Positions 30,733-35,372 of a DNA stretch of 64,000 nt are shown piece by piece. Source of the DNA: Anaerolineae bacterium (lineage in GTDB: Bacteria; Chloroflexota; Anaerolineae; Aggregatilineales; Phototrophicaceae). The position numbers and the translations under genes were made by a program. The notes beneath the pieces are model-generated. The model made no database searches. It saw only the letters and a program-made list of their open reading frames with translations, and was not told the origin of the DNA. Numbering within the stretch: position 1 is the stretch's first letter; each line of letters starts with the position of its first letter. The DNA lies in assembly GCA_022824365.1 (NCBI GenBank), contig JAJEAA010000020.1:124001-188000 (forward strand), given 5' to 3'.

Positions 30733-32874
30733 ATGAGCCTGATGCAGCCCGATTCCACCATCCGCACGACCTGCCCCTACTGCGGCGTTGGCTGTCAGAT
30801 GGACTTGCGCATCAAAGACGAGCAGATTTACCGCGTCGAAGCTCCCTTCGACAGCGCGCCCAATTATGGCAACCTCTGTGTCAAGGGACGCTTCGGCCTG
30901 GATTTCGCCACCCATCCGCGCCGCTTGAAGAAGCCCCTGATCCGCGCTGGCGAACGTGGCAACTTCCGCGAGGCGACTTGGGACGAGGCTCTGGATTTCG
31001 TCAGCGAGCGACTCTCGGCTATTGTCCGCGAGTATGGCGGCGACAGCATCGCTGCGTACGCCTGCGCCAAAGCCACCAACGAAGATAACTACGTCTTCCA
31101 GAAATGGGTGCGCGCGGTCATGCAAACCAACAACATCGATCACTGCGCCCGGCTTTGCCACGCCGGCAGCGTGACCGGCTTGCAACTCGCCATCGGCTCA
31201 AGCGCGATGAGCAACAGCATCGGCGAAATGGAAGACCTGGATACTTTCATCGTCACCGGCAGCAATACCACCGAGACGCATCCGGTCATCAGCCTCTTCC
31301 TGAAAAAGGCGGTGCGCGCCAATGGCGCCAAAATGATCGTCATTGATCCGCGACAGATTGAACTGACGGACTTCGCGGCGCTCTGGCTGCGGCAGAAGCC
31401 GGGCACTGATGTCGCGGTCTTTCAGGCGATGGCCAATGTCATCGTCAACGAGAATCTCTTCAATCCCGAATTCATCGAGGCGCGCACCGAAGGCTTCGAG
31501 GACTATATTGAATCGCTGGAACATTGTACGCCCGAGTGGGCGGAAACCATAAGCGGTGTGCCGGCCGATGATATCCGGCAGGCAGCGCGCATGTATGCCA
31601 CCGCCGAGCGCGCCGCCTTCTACTGGGGCATGGGCATCAGCCAAAGCACCCATGGCACCGACAACGCCCTGTCGCTGACCAACCTGGCGCTGATGTGCGG
31701 GCACGCCGGCAAACCGGGCACGGGACTCAATCCCCTGCGCGGACAGAACAACGTGCAAGGCTGCTCCGATAGCGGCGGCTTGCCCAATGTTTACACCGCC
31801 TACCAATCGGTGGCCGATCCGGCGATACGCCAGAAATTCGAGACGACCTGGCGCGCGAGCCTCAATCCCGAGCCCGGCTTGACCGTCACCGAGATGGTCG
31901 ATGGCGCGCTCGCCGGGCAGATCAAAGCCATGATCGTCATGGGCGAGAATCCCATGATGAGCGAGCCGAATTTGTCCCATGCCCAGCACGCTCTGGAAGA
32001 ACTCGATCTGCTGGTCTGCATCGATATCTTCATGAACGAAACAGGCGAGATGGCTGATATCATCTTGCCTTCGGCGAGCTTCGCCGAGAAAGACGGCACC
32101 TTCACCAATAGCGACCGGCGGGTGCAGCGGGTGCGGCAAGCTCTGCCCGCGGTCGGCGAGTCACTGCCGGATTGGGAGATCGTCTGTGCCCTGGCGCGGC
32201 GGATGGAAGCGCAGCTTGGCGTCCAGATCAGCGCCGGCTTCGATTATGCCGACCCCGAGGCGATCTGGGAAGAGATGCGGGCGCTGACGCCGGATTTCCA
32301 AGGTATTACCTATGCGCGGCTGGAAGCCGAAGGCGGCGTGCATTGGCCCTGCCCGGCCGCTGATCATCCCGGCACGCCTTATCTTTTCGAAGACGACTTC
32401 CCGCGCGGCAAAGGCAAATTCTGGGAACTGGAATATGGCACCGAGAGTGAGCTGCCGGACGAAGAGTATCCCTACCATCTGACCACCGGGCGCGTGCTCT
32501 TCCACTGGCACGGCGGCACCATGACCCGCAGTTCGCGGCTGGAGGAAGCCTTCCCTGTGCCCATCGTCGAGATGCACCCGGCCGATGCCGGCGCGCTCCA
32601 ACTGGTCTCGGGCGATTGGCTCCGCATCACTTCGCGGCGCGGTTCGGTCGAGTGCCAAGTTATGGTGACGGGCCGCTCGCCGGCTGGCACGCTCTTCCTG
32701 CCCTTCCATTTCGTCGAAGCGGCGGCGAATCTGCTGACGCTGGACAAGATCGACCCGCGCGCGAAGATTCCCGATTTCAAGATGGCGGCGGTCAAGCTGG
32801 AGAAGGTGGAGCGAGAAGCAACATCGCTGGAGGAGCAAGGGGCGATCAAAGACCCCGTGCGCTATGTGCATTGA
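30733..32874 (+). CDS. fdhA: formate dehydrogenase alpha subunit (molybdopterin oxidoreductase), Cys type
   Basis: A 713-residue molybdo/tungsto-bis-MGD enzyme that oxidises formate to CO2. Cys14, Cys17, Cys21 and Cys49 bind a 4Fe-4S cluster (CPYCGVGC ... GNLCVKGR). The active-site motif is CARLCHAGSVTGL, with Cys142 (TGC codon) where E. coli FdhF has selenocysteine, followed by the invariant His. SNTTETHPV and GMGISQSTHGTDN are typical cofactor-binding segments. No Tat signal, so it is cytoplasmic. With the NuoE/F-like and Fe-S subunits encoded downstream it would form an NAD-reducing complex. The locus also holds mobA, fdhD and moeA for cofactor maturation. Confidence 0.92.
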   Translation: MSLMQPDSTIRTTCPYCGVGCQMDLRIKDEQIYRVEAPFDSAPNYGNLCVKGRFGLDFATHPRRLKKPLIRAGERGNFREATWDEALDFVSERLSAIVREYGGDSIAAYACAKATNEDNYVFQKWVRAVMQTNNIDHCARLCHAGSVTGLQLAIGSSAMSNSIGEMEDLDTFIVTGSNTTETHPVISLFLKKAVRANGAKMIVIDPRQIELTDFAALWLRQKPGTDVAVFQAMANVIVNENLFNPEFIEARTEGFEDYIESLEHCTPEWAETISGVPADDIRQAARMYATAERAAFYWGMGISQSTHGTDNALSLTNLALMCGHAGKPGTGLNPLRGQNNVQGCSDSGGLPNVYTAYQSVADPAIRQKFETTWRASLNPEPGLTVTEMVDGALAGQIKAMIVMGENPMMSEPNLSHAQHALEELDLLVCIDIFMNETGEMADIILPSASFAEKDGTFTNSDRRVQRVRQALPAVGESLPDWEIVCALARRMEAQLGVQISAGFDYADPEAIWEEMRALTPDFQGITYARLEAEGGVHWPCPAADHPGTPYLFEDDFPRGKGKFWELEYGTESELPDEEYPYHLTTGRVLFHWHGGTMTRSSRLEEAFPVPIVEMHPADAGALQLVSGDWLRITSRRGSVECQVMVTGRSPAGTLFLPFHFVEAAANLLTLDKIDPRAKIPDFKMAAVKLEKVEREATSLEEQGAIKDPVRYVH

Positions 32875-32943: not shown

Positions 32944-33261
32944 ATGAGCGAGATAACTGCCGTCGCCTTGCCGGTCGAAGAAATAGGCGCCTACTGCCAG
33001 ACGCAGTCGATTGAGCGCTTGTCTTTGTTTGGACCAGGCTTTGATGCTTGGTTGCGATCAGATAAAGAAATTGGAGTGCTGGTAGAGTATCTTCCTGAAG
33101 CGTCCGTATCTTATATTGATATGGCGCGGCAAGAACGCGTATTGAGCGAGATTATGAGCGGCGCAGTTGACTTGCGTACGCCAAACGAGCTTGAACCAAC
33201 TAGCAAGCAGCAGATCCTTGCCGGAGCGACGCTTGTCTTTGCCGAAGACGCTGGCGAATGA
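32944..33261 (+). CDS. nucleotidyltransferase-fold (MNT) protein with lost catalytic residues
   Basis: A 105-residue protein clearly homologous to the MNT proteins at 33619 and 34098 (IERLSLFG ... VLVEYLPEA ... VDLRTPNEL). The catalytic motif is destroyed: GSAVRNE becomes GPGFDAW and the metal-binding SDIDLL becomes KEIGVL, so the Gly-Ser and both Asp residues are gone. The third Asp (AVDLRTP) remains. The frame is open and has a ribosome-binding site, so this looks like a retained pseudoenzyme rather than a broken gene. It overlaps the HEPN gene at 33239. Base composition is lower in GC than the flanking fdh genes. Confidence 0.8.
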   Translation: MSEITAVALPVEEIGAYCQTQSIERLSLFGPGFDAWLRSDKEIGVLVEYLPEASVSYIDMARQERVLSEIMSGAVDLRTPNELEPTSKQQILAGATLVFAEDAGE

Positions 33262-33592
33262 TCCGACCCGTCTGCGTCACATGTTGGATTGGGCGCAAAC
33301 CCCGGAGCGTATTGCCGCCCGGGAAACACGCCAATCCCTCGACGAAAATGTACTTCTGAGTTTGGCGTTGACCAGGACGCTGCAAGTCATTGGCGAAGCG
33401 GCGAACAATGTCACGTCGGAATCACGACGAGCATACCCCGCCATTCCATGGGCTGATATTATCGGCATGCGACACAAATTAGTTCATGTCTATTATGCTG
33501 TAGATTTGAATGTAGTCTGGACTACCGTCTCTGAATATGTGCCGCCGCTGCTTGCCGAATTGCAGCGCATACTTGAAGATGAGTGGCGCTGA
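33239..33592 (+). CDS. HEPN-domain (DUF86-type) RNase toxin candidate
   Basis: A 117-residue helical HEPN protein. The RNase/AMP-acceptor motif Rx4HxY is intact (RHKLVHVY). No ATG fits the expected length: TTG at 33239, inside the end of the MNT gene, gives LPKTLANDPTRLRHMLDWAQ, comparable to family N-termini; ATG at 33282 would truncate the first helix. In characterised HEPN-MNT pairs the MNT antitoxin AMPylates the Tyr of this motif and silences the RNase. Its own upstream MNT is catalytically dead, but an intact MNT follows 26 bases downstream. Confidence 0.82.
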   Translation: MPKTLANDPTRLRHMLDWAQTPERIAARETRQSLDENVLLSLALTRTLQVIGEAANNVTSESRRAYPAIPWADIIGMRHKLVHVYYAVDLNVVWTTVSEYVPPLLAELQRILEDEWR

Positions 33593-33618
33593 TACAAGTG
33601 ATTGGAGAATCTGCAACC

Positions 33619-33927
33619 ATGAGCGAGTCCGTCGCTATTGACCTCCCGCTTGAGGCGATTCGAGCCTATTGCGAAACGCAGCCGATTGAACGCTTGTCTT
33701 TGTTTGGCTCCGCTGTACGGAATGAATTGACGCCCGAGAGTGATATTGATCTGCTGGTTGAGTACTTGCCGGAGGCGCGAATCACTCTGTTCGATATGGG
33801 TGGGCACCTGATGGATCTAAGCGAAATCGTCGGACGCAAAGTAGATCTGGTCACGCCGAAAGGTTTGTGCCCTTACATCCGTGACGAAGTGCTGGACGTC
33901 GCGAGGCTCATTTATAATGTCAAGTAG
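33619..33927 (+). CDS. MNT nucleotidyltransferase (intact, no HEPN gene of its own)
   Basis: A 102-residue minimal nucleotidyltransferase. The active site is complete: LFGSAVRNELTPESDIDLLVEYL supplies the Gly-Ser and Asp-x-Asp, and RKVDLVTP the third Asp. GGAGAAT precedes the ATG at 33619; a GTG-started extension from 33583 is less likely. No HEPN gene follows: 170 bases of apparently non-coding sequence separate it from the next MNT. Its position directly after HEPN1 suggests it could supply the activity the first MNT lacks. Confidence 0.85.
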   Translation: MSESVAIDLPLEAIRAYCETQPIERLSLFGSAVRNELTPESDIDLLVEYLPEARITLFDMGGHLMDLSEIVGRKVDLVTPKGLCPYIRDEVLDVARLIYNVK

Positions 33928-34044
33928 CGGTGAAGACTGTCTGCAGTAGAAACATGACTGGCCGATGTTGAACTCAAACATAGGTTTGCATTGATAGTCA
34001 GACACTCTGTATCTGAGCATGTTTAATTCAAGATTCCAATACTT

Positions 34045-34097: not shown

Positions 34098-34415
34098 ATG
34101 AGCGAGATTGTTTGCGTAGATCTTCCGAAAGACAGAATCCGTCAATACTGCGTCGGAAAGCCGATAAAGCGCCTATCACTGTTTGGCTCAGCCGTACGCA
34201 ATGAATTAAGGTCGGATAGCGACATTGATTTGCTAGTCGAGTATTTGCTAGACGCTCCCGTGGGATATTTCACGATGGCGCAGCACATGCTGGACTTTAG
34301 CGAGATCTTTGGTCGTCGTGTTGACTTGGCGACGCCAGATTCCTTGAGTCCATATATCCGGCAGGCAGTACTTGATAGTGCCGAGCTCCTATATGCGCAA
34401 GATCAGGGAGAATGA
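34098..34415 (+). CDS. MNT nucleotidyltransferase antitoxin candidate
   Basis: A 105-residue MNT protein with an intact active site (LFGSAVRNELRSDSDIDLLVEYL and RRVDLATP). Close in sequence to the protein at 33619, including the C-terminal LSPYIRQAVLDSAELLYA. The ATG at 34098 is set by AGGAGGAGG ten bases upstream. It overlaps the following HEPN gene by 23 bases, the usual antitoxin-toxin arrangement. Expected to AMPylate its HEPN partner. Confidence 0.88.
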   Translation: MSEIVCVDLPKDRIRQYCVGKPIKRLSLFGSAVRNELRSDSDIDLLVEYLLDAPVGYFTMAQHMLDFSEIFGRRVDLATPDSLSPYIRQAVLDSAELLYAQDQGE

Positions 34416-34752
34416 CTGGCTTCGTCTACAACACATGTATGATGAGGCTAGAGTCGCGCGCAAGTTTGTCAAAGGAAAGTCTAGGCGCGATTTAGATACA
34501 AATGAACAATTTCAATACGCTTTGGCCCGAGCAGTCGAAATTGTTTGTGAAGCCGCCTGCAATATCACGGACGAATTTCAAGCCGAAAACGATCAGATTG
34601 AATGGCGTCAAATTACTGGCATGCGTCAATGGTTGGCGCATGCCTACTTCAAAATAGACCTTAATATCCTGTGGAAGACTGTGCAGCAGGATCTACCGCC
34701 ACTGATCGCCCAGCTTGAAGCCATTTTCTCCACCGAAGATGCATCGGAATGA
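34393..34752 (+). CDS. HEPN-domain toxin candidate (partner of MNT at 34098)
   Basis: A 119-residue HEPN protein with the Rx4HxY motif (RQWLAHAY) and the typical helix EQFQYALARAVEIVCEAACNI. The ATG at 34393 lies inside the end of the MNT gene. Its stop overlaps the mobA start (ATGA), so this toxin is translationally coupled to a molybdenum-cofactor gene, an odd partnership. It differs considerably from HEPN1, suggesting separate acquisition or long divergence. Confidence 0.87.
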   Translation: MRKIRENDWLRLQHMYDEARVARKFVKGKSRRDLDTNEQFQYALARAVEIVCEAACNITDEFQAENDQIEWRQITGMRQWLAHAYFKIDLNILWKTVQQDLPPLIAQLEAIFSTEDASE

Positions 34753-35372
34753 CTGACGGGAACGAAGCTAGCGCTCCTGTCTCCCTCGCCATCATCGCCG
34801 GCGGCAAAAGCCAGCGCATGGGCCGCGACAAAGCCTTCGTCGACCTCGGCGGCAAAACCCTGATTGAACATGTCATCAATCGCAGCGCCGCCCTAGGACA
34901 AGCCGAGACCATCCTCATCACCAACAAACCGGCTGATTATGTGCATCTCGGCCTGCCGATGTTCCGCGACGCCCTGCCGGGCAAAGGCTCGCTGGGCGGG
35001 ATCTACACCGCCCTGCTCCAGGCGAGAAGCGACTTTGTGCTCGTCCTGGCTTGCGATATGCCCTTCATCAGCGCCGACCTCCTGCGCTTCATGACCGAAC
35101 AGATCAACGATGACATCGATATTATCGCCCCCCGCGTCGACGGCTATCCGCAAGGCTTGCACGCCATCTATCGCAAGACTTGCATCGAGCCGATTCGCGA
35201 ACAGTTGACGGCAAACCGGCTCAAGATCATCCGCTTCTACGATCGTATGCGCCTGCGTTACCTGGATGAGCCGGAATACGCGCCCTACGACCCCGACGGG
35301 CGCTGCTTCGCCAATCTCAACACGCCGGAAGAACTGGTGGAAGCGCGGCGGCTGCTCGGCGGGACCGGCTGA
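34749..35372 (+). CDS. mobA: molybdenum cofactor guanylyltransferase MobA
   Basis: A 207-residue enzyme that attaches GMP to molybdopterin, the form of cofactor used by formate dehydrogenases. The nucleotide-binding start IIAGGKSQRMGRDKAFVDLGG is diagnostic, with LACDMPFIS as the metal-binding Asp segment and FANLNTPEEL at the C-terminus. Length is normal. It overlaps the preceding HEPN gene by four bases, and the diaphorase gene starts 40 bases after its stop. Its location among the fdh genes fits maturation of the bis-MGD cofactor of FdhA. Confidence 0.93.
   Translation: MTDGNEASAPVSLAIIAGGKSQRMGRDKAFVDLGGKTLIEHVINRSAALGQAETILITNKPADYVHLGLPMFRDALPGKGSLGGIYTALLQARSDFVLVLACDMPFISADLLRFMTEQINDDIDIIAPRVDGYPQGLHAIYRKTCIEPIREQLTANRLKIIRFYDRMRLRYLDEPEYAPYDPDGRCFANLNTPEELVEARRLLGGTG

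Follow-up and report, generated by a model that had tools for sequence, protein, structure and literature searches.

The window, by which we mean the whole stretch of 64,000 nucleotides that was analysed, belongs to a genome of 4.18 Mb in 37 contigs (labelled G000). It contains an array of five small genes on the + strand, bounded on one side by a formate dehydrogenase alpha subunit gene (30733..32874, +; TIGR01591, 787.9 bits, above cut-off) and on the other by a gene for a MobA-like protein (34749..35372, +), for which the best NCBIfam models were MobA at scores below their cut-offs. The first gene of the array, MNT1 (32944..33261, 105 aa), encodes a homologue of minimal nucleotidyltransferases (MNTs) with a dead catalytic motif. 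It is followed by HEPN1 (33239..33592), which encodes a HepT-like putative RNase toxin with the sequence RHKLVHVY (Pfam PF01934, 71.3 bits), and by MNT2 (33619..33927), an orphan MNT with a live motif. The stop codon of HEPN1 ends at 33592 and MNT2 starts with ATG at 33619, leaving 26 bases between them, as the initial annotation had described when it called MNT2 active-looking and without a HEPN of its own. The last two genes form an adjoining pair outside the span of that annotation and are part of the same array: MNT3 (34098..34415), with a live motif, and its HepT-like partner HEPN2 (34393..34752; RQWLAHAY; PF01934, 87.4 bits). A scan for promoters and terminators found 2 and 1 sites, while 1.9 and 1.7 were expected from shuffled sequences, so that there was no excess. 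PADLOC models named PDC-S09 were matched by MNT1 (32944-33258; 5.5e-08) and MNT2 (33619-33924; 3.8e-24). The loci of the named collection closest to HEPN1 were from Chloroflexi, Chloroflexota or Anaerolineae MAGs.

The motif of MNT1 reads LSLFGPGFDAWLRSDKEIGVLVEY, whereas that of MNT2 reads LSLFGSAVRNELTPESDIDLLVEY. In MNT1 the motif Ser is replaced by Pro and the two motif Asp by Glu and Gly, and the third acidic residue is still present (D76, in AVDLRT); this set (GP, E, G; third Asp kept) is referred to as type A below. The reading agrees with the initial annotation, which had noted GP for GS, EIG for DID and the loss of both motif Asp residues but had left D76 unmentioned. MNT2 has GS, DID and the third Asp. 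MNT1 scored 17.1 bits against Pfam Polbeta, under the cut-off of 26.9. The cut-off of 60 of the NCBIfam MntA_antitoxin and HepT_toxin models was not reached by MNT1 (no match), HEPN1 (25.5 bits) or MNT2 (43.8 bits). Since MNT2 also fell below it in spite of its live motif, these models miss this lineage in general, and antitoxins like MNT1 are overlooked by annotation. The AlphaFold model of MNT1 (pLDDT 80.7) has a predicted MNT-type fold. Its best matches were MntA chains from HepT/MntA crystals (7bxo_E, E 2.6e-05, TM 0.64 by query), and it also matched 6m6u_A, the D39E/D41E mutant of MntA. A resemblance of MNT1 to undecaprenyl pyrophosphate synthase (Pfam 13.5 bits against a cut-off of 27; PDB profile E 0.0041) was put down to chance, as it stayed under the cut-off and does not agree with the fold of the model.

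A profile search (A1, built from 11 rows) found MNT1 orthologues adjoining HEPN1 in 11 of the 34 same-genus genomes, with scores of at least 172.8 bits and the next match at 125.5. The initial annotation had considered the MNT1 frame intact and had counted its inactivation by frameshifts in close relatives as evidence against its proposal; the frame is open in the window and none of the 11 orthologues is interrupted by an internal stop. The median NG86 dN/dS of MNT1 was 0.27 (52/55 pairs usable), higher than that of HEPN1 (0.15, 42/55 pairs, with the HEPN1 of locus L043 entered from beyond its stop) and of MNT2-like genes (0.16, 21/21 pairs). With dN/dS well below 1, MNT1 is under purifying selection, and on this and the unbroken frames we reject the reading of MNT1 as a pseudogene. 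In a large protein database, 4897 proteins matched the MNT1 profile. Among the best 120, which include the window's own protein, the second motif Asp was replaced in 58 (56 Gly, 2 Ala) and the full GS..DxD..D set was present in 62. The third Asp was kept in 54 of those 58 and replaced by Ser in 3, and one sequence was incomplete. Type-A sequences (n = 35; 36 of the 40 first-listed matches and MNT1, thinned at 85%) were compared with 61 live MNTs from the fetched loci. Gly occupied the position of the second Asp in 97% of type A, while the Ser of the motif and its first Asp were variable. R38, D59, R62, E64, R78, and E82 were invariant and R65 and N81 were kept at 94%, whereas all of these positions were variable in the live MNTs. 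V98 and F99 were invariant as well, but their conservation tells little about MNT1, because the HEPN1 start codon overlaps there. MNT1 belongs to a conserved dead subfamily with newly invariant residues; it is an antitoxin homologue that has been kept although catalytically dead, and its model has an MNT fold.

HEPN1 starts at the TTG at 33239, within the last codons of MNT1. This start codon was deduced from alignment and conservation, the same TTG being present in 10/10 loci inspected (the eleventh, L122, was not among them). The overlap of MNT1 with a HEPN gene carrying a complete Rx4HxY, as initially reported, was thereby upheld. The HEPN1 model had a pLDDT of 93.9, and its fold matches were weak by E-value (best 7ae8_B, E 0.036, TM 0.70). 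The acceptor Tyr (Y85) was kept in all 11 loci of the genus. It was present in 29/29 type-A HEPNs compared, together with V84 (29/29) and Y86 (28/29), and in the 120 best listed HEPN1 relatives without exception, a list that includes HEPNs of other modules. An equivalence of HepT R59 with HEPN1 residue 64 was discarded, since the 4-bit alignment was too weak and Arg at 63/64 was no clean group separator. At one locus (L043:4001-4351) there is an in-frame TAG near the HEPN1 start next to an intact MNT1; the MNT1-HEPN1 pair can therefore be lost.

The initial annotation had proposed MNT1, HEPN1 and MNT2 as a possible tripartite unit and had suggested searching related genomes for the same gene order. 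In 7 of the 11 loci (L036-L041, L043), HEPN1 is followed by an intact MNT with its own HEPN. Two loci, the window and L121, have an intact orphan MNT at this place, L042 has a broken MNT, and in L122 (genome G024) no MNT follows HEPN1. The nine intact MNTs fell into five groups of the MNT tree (window, L121, L037, and L038; L039 and L043; L036; L040; L041), on branches with SH-aLRT of 93 to 100 in a quick tree of few columns. The tripartite order is therefore not conserved and the MNT adjoining HEPN1 is exchangeable; with an orphan MNT at this place in only 2/11 MNT1 loci, a fixed unit is not supported.

The relatives indicate how MNT2 may have become an orphan. Close relatives of MNT2 in L037, L038, L113, and L168 have a HEPN next. 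At L111, the gap after an orphan MNT holds an 18-residue stretch that matches the N-terminus of this HEPN at 100% identity (tblastn 7.5e-10), and the L111 orphan is the survivor of a pair whose HEPN was deleted. The gap after the orphan can be aligned among the window, L118, and L121, the last with an insert of roughly 200 bases. A search of these gaps with 102 HEPN queries gave no convincing HEPN remnant (best E 0.27 in the window, 0.15 in L118, and 0.006 in L121, the last at 46.7% over 15 residues). A ten-codon ORF of the window (33917..33949, +) lies, as judged by eye, at the place and in the frame where relatives begin a HEPN; it is a possible remnant with a best tblastn E of 0.27 and no supporting match. 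Judging from the relatives, MNT2 probably lost its own HEPN and is likewise the survivor of a deleted pair. The three species with this gap (the window, L046/L118, and L016/L121) nevertheless all retain the MNT2 motif, at pairwise dN/dS values of 0.11, 0.17, and 0.26, so that MNT2 could still act in trans. An enrichment of orphan MNTs behind dead pairs was considered and dropped, as five cases (one broken, L110) against four elsewhere at the site are too few.

There were 32 mobA matches in 31 of the 34 genomes, and 30 loci were read. In 29 of these, MNT or HEPN genes lie directly upstream of mobA. The one exception (L256, genome G027), in which a formate dehydrogenase gene is followed by mobA with nothing between, represents a natural empty site. 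Since the contents of the array vary by species, the site is a slot in which HEPN-MNT modules accumulate and are lost. Genome G019 holds two copies of the locus (L042:3449-3643 and L124), owing to duplication or a mixed bin, and in one copy the 3' end of the formate dehydrogenase gene is found a second time, inside the array.

To place MNT1 among its homologues, we paired each MNT in 88 loci (8 of the named collection and 80 of other genomes, all with an MNT) with the HEPN after it and read the acceptor residue. The sample comprised 131 MNT domains, of which 4 fragments and 3 near-live variants are outside the following counts. The 105 MNTs with a live motif had 82 partners with a readable acceptor, namely Tyr in 81 and Asn in 1; 2 partners were unreadable and for 21 no HEPN was found. 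Ten of the 81 Tyr HEPNs were split by a stop or frameshift. The single Asn (RNQVIHAN) was found at L212 of genome G471. The 19 dead MNTs had partners with Tyr in 11 cases (the MNT1 type) and with Phe in 5, and the 3 dead MNTs with no partner after them stand after a HEPN and in frame with it. The third Asp was also lost in the dead MNT of 4/5 Phe pairs; the exception, L042:4745, keeps it and has a split HEPN. Phe was thus associated with dead MNTs (5/16 against 0/82; Fisher p = 6e-5, or 3e-4 if the one Asn is counted as a loss), in a test that is not phylogenetically independent as the Phe HEPNs sit in one region of the tree. Among 118 newly listed relatives of the Phe HEPNs, 29 had Phe and 89 had Tyr, and the RNase Arg and His were kept in 27 of these 29 database Phe HEPNs. 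The existence of a dead subfamily with Phe-acceptor HEPNs indicates that AMPylation can apparently be given up.

In the HEPN tree, a single starred group of 23 rows held the HEPNs of MNT1-type modules. Those with Phe fell in another group, some rows of which have Tyr, a grouping in keeping with Tyr having been lost later than catalysis. In the MNT tree with motif columns, a starred branch separated all 43 dead rows from 85 live or near-live ones; without the motif columns, 4 changes were needed, 1 of them forced by starred branches. It is likely from these trees that the dead MNT group has a single origin. Some of the database HEPNs and dead MNTs lie on contigs of equal length and may be partners, which we treat as a lead.

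Known systems resemble the MNT1-HEPN1 pair in part. HepT/MntA of Shewanella oneidensis (SO_3166/SO_3165, type VII) is alike in that an MNT gene lies upstream of and adjoins a HEPN gene with Rx4HxY, in the MNT fold of the MNT1 model and in the likeness, weak by E-value, of the HEPN1 model to HEPN toxins. It is unlike in that MNT1 lacks GSx10DxD, which is described as highly conserved and required for adenylylation in the consulted sections of PMC7641770; MNT1-HEPN1 is therefore not classed as type VII. In the same sections, an MntA with DxD changed to ExE was solved as a hetero-octamer with unmodified HepT and showed reduced neutralisation, and a change of the HepT Tyr also lowered neutralisation. 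The 2015 study, as excerpted (PMC4621449), describes an SO_3166 Tyr mutant that was as toxic and was still neutralised by SO_3165, and reports that SO_3165 binds and represses its own promoter. The HEPN-MNT system of Legionella pneumophila also has a small MNT and a HEPN with Rx4HxY, and its MNT structure (8xeo) was among the fold matches of MNT1. Unlike MNT1 with its dead motif, however, that MNT is an active poly-AMPylating enzyme whose motif mutants left the HEPN unmodified (PMC11586414, sections consulted). Clusters of several MNT and HEPN genes in crenarchaea (PMC3710099) and an MNT-HEPN module inserted in the lysine biosynthesis operon of Thermus thermophilus HB8 (PMC2701414) parallel the occurrence of several pairs together and of a module within a metabolic operon, but the available text of these two papers does not mention dead-antitoxin subfamilies. 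In the open-access literature covered, including the consulted part of PMC12839542, we found no account of an MNT antitoxin that is both conserved and catalytically dead; this result is no proof of novelty.

On balance, we lean towards the view that MNT1 is a non-enzymatic binding antitoxin and that MNT1-HEPN1 is a self-contained two-gene module under binding control. The module would be derived from HEPN-MNT systems, its antitoxin having turned into a pseudoenzyme that holds HEPN1 inactive by stoichiometric binding instead of AMPylating it. The proposed neutralisation by protein binding is analogous to that of type II toxin-antitoxin systems, which differ in that the putative antitoxin here is a dead nucleotidyltransferase homologue. 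MNT1-HEPN1 would then be one of the several modules gained and lost in the array inside the formate dehydrogenase gene cluster, and MNT2 would be the survivor of another, its HEPN deleted. We infer that HEPN1 acts as a toxin, that it is bound and neutralised by MNT1, and that AMPylation is dispensable. Since the pair with the dead antitoxin is intact in related species, it is probable that MNT1 restrains HEPN1 otherwise than by AMPylation. The published ExE and Tyr-mutant results imply that the known system could give rise to a binding-only antitoxin, and from the Phe-type modules it would seem that this has happened. The G024 locus, which has MNT1-HEPN1 and no live MNT, is consistent with control by binding, although this genome has a live-motif MNT elsewhere (L200). 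The reduced neutralisation that PMC7641770, in its consulted part, reports upon changes of DxD or Tyr speaks against it, as do the dN/dS of MNT1, higher than those of HEPN1 and the MNT2 group, and the interrupted HEPN1 of L043. The main result against stopping at binding is the strict conservation of the HEPN1 Tyr. A useless Tyr should drift somewhat, and the other dead subfamily has lost it.

For this reason, we tentatively keep as a possible alternative a division of labour looser than that of the initial annotation, which had the dead MNT as scaffold or sensor and MNT2 as the modifying enzyme acting in trans. In the looser form, MNT1 would scaffold HEPN1 and the HEPN1 Tyr would be AMPylated in trans by whichever live MNT the array or genome provides, with MNT2 as one such enzyme rather than a set partner. 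The kept Tyr makes modification in trans possible, whereas the other dead subfamily has Phe; the orphan MNT2 has retained its motif at the pairwise dN/dS given above, and a live-motif MNT is present in 11/11 MNT1-bearing genomes. This presence is uninformative, however, since live MNTs are common in the genus with or without MNT1. Moreover, different loci have different MNTs behind HEPN1, L042 has a broken one and L122 none, and at L118 the same orphan MNT type follows a Phe HEPN, to which AMP cannot be attached at that residue.

It is quite improbable that the dead MNT has taken up another task, such as operon repression or the binding of a nucleotide or RNA, and that this signal controls HEPN1. 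The new invariant charged residues and the promoter repression reported for SO_3165 (PMC4621449, as excerpted) would suit such a task, but the number of promoter sites in the scan did not exceed that in shuffled sequences. Decay, with MNT1 as a degenerating antitoxin that persists by chance or through its overlap with the HEPN1 start and HEPN1 harmless or uncontrolled, could account for the three changed motif positions (Ser and both Asp), for the broken HEPN1 in 1/11 loci and broken following MNT in 1, and for the free loss of modules at the site, but is very hard to reconcile with 0/11 broken MNT1 genes, their dN/dS, the Gly fixed at the second Asp, the new invariant residues, and the wide distribution of the subfamily.

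The array might even preserve stages of giving up AMPylation, as a cross-regulated network of few enzymes and several pseudo-antitoxins, an idea that we consider rather unlikely. Catalysis would have gone first, in the ancestor of the dead MNTs. In type A, the HEPN Tyr would be kept because it is still AMPylated in trans by live MNTs from the array or genome, with the dead MNT holding the toxin. In a second type (type B), in which Tyr has changed to Phe and mostly the third Asp is lost, control would be purely by binding and the HEPN immune to the AMPylating enzymes of its neighbours. Published reports differ on whether HEPN toxins are neutralised by AMPylation, binding or both, as the consulted sections of PMC4621449 (Tyr mutant neutralised) and PMC7641770 (neutralisation reduced) illustrate. 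The modules described here are natural ones that lack the enzyme motif and retain the RNase motif of the toxin, in two forms with the Tyr kept or lost, and they allow a direct test of the need for AMPylation.

In viral contigs, 30 stretches matched a search pattern and none was confirmed. Plasmids yielded 5 cyanobacterial matches with about 27-40% identity. HEPN-MNT has also been the subject of a study on Aphanizomenon. Fusion-like arrangements, with a dead MNT continuing in frame after a HEPN, were observed at L170 and L171 (genomes G016 and G032), where the HEPNs lack the RNase His and the Tyr (RHQLVRDF and RQQLVRGF), and at L036:4676-5338, where the HEPN keeps RHHLVHGY.
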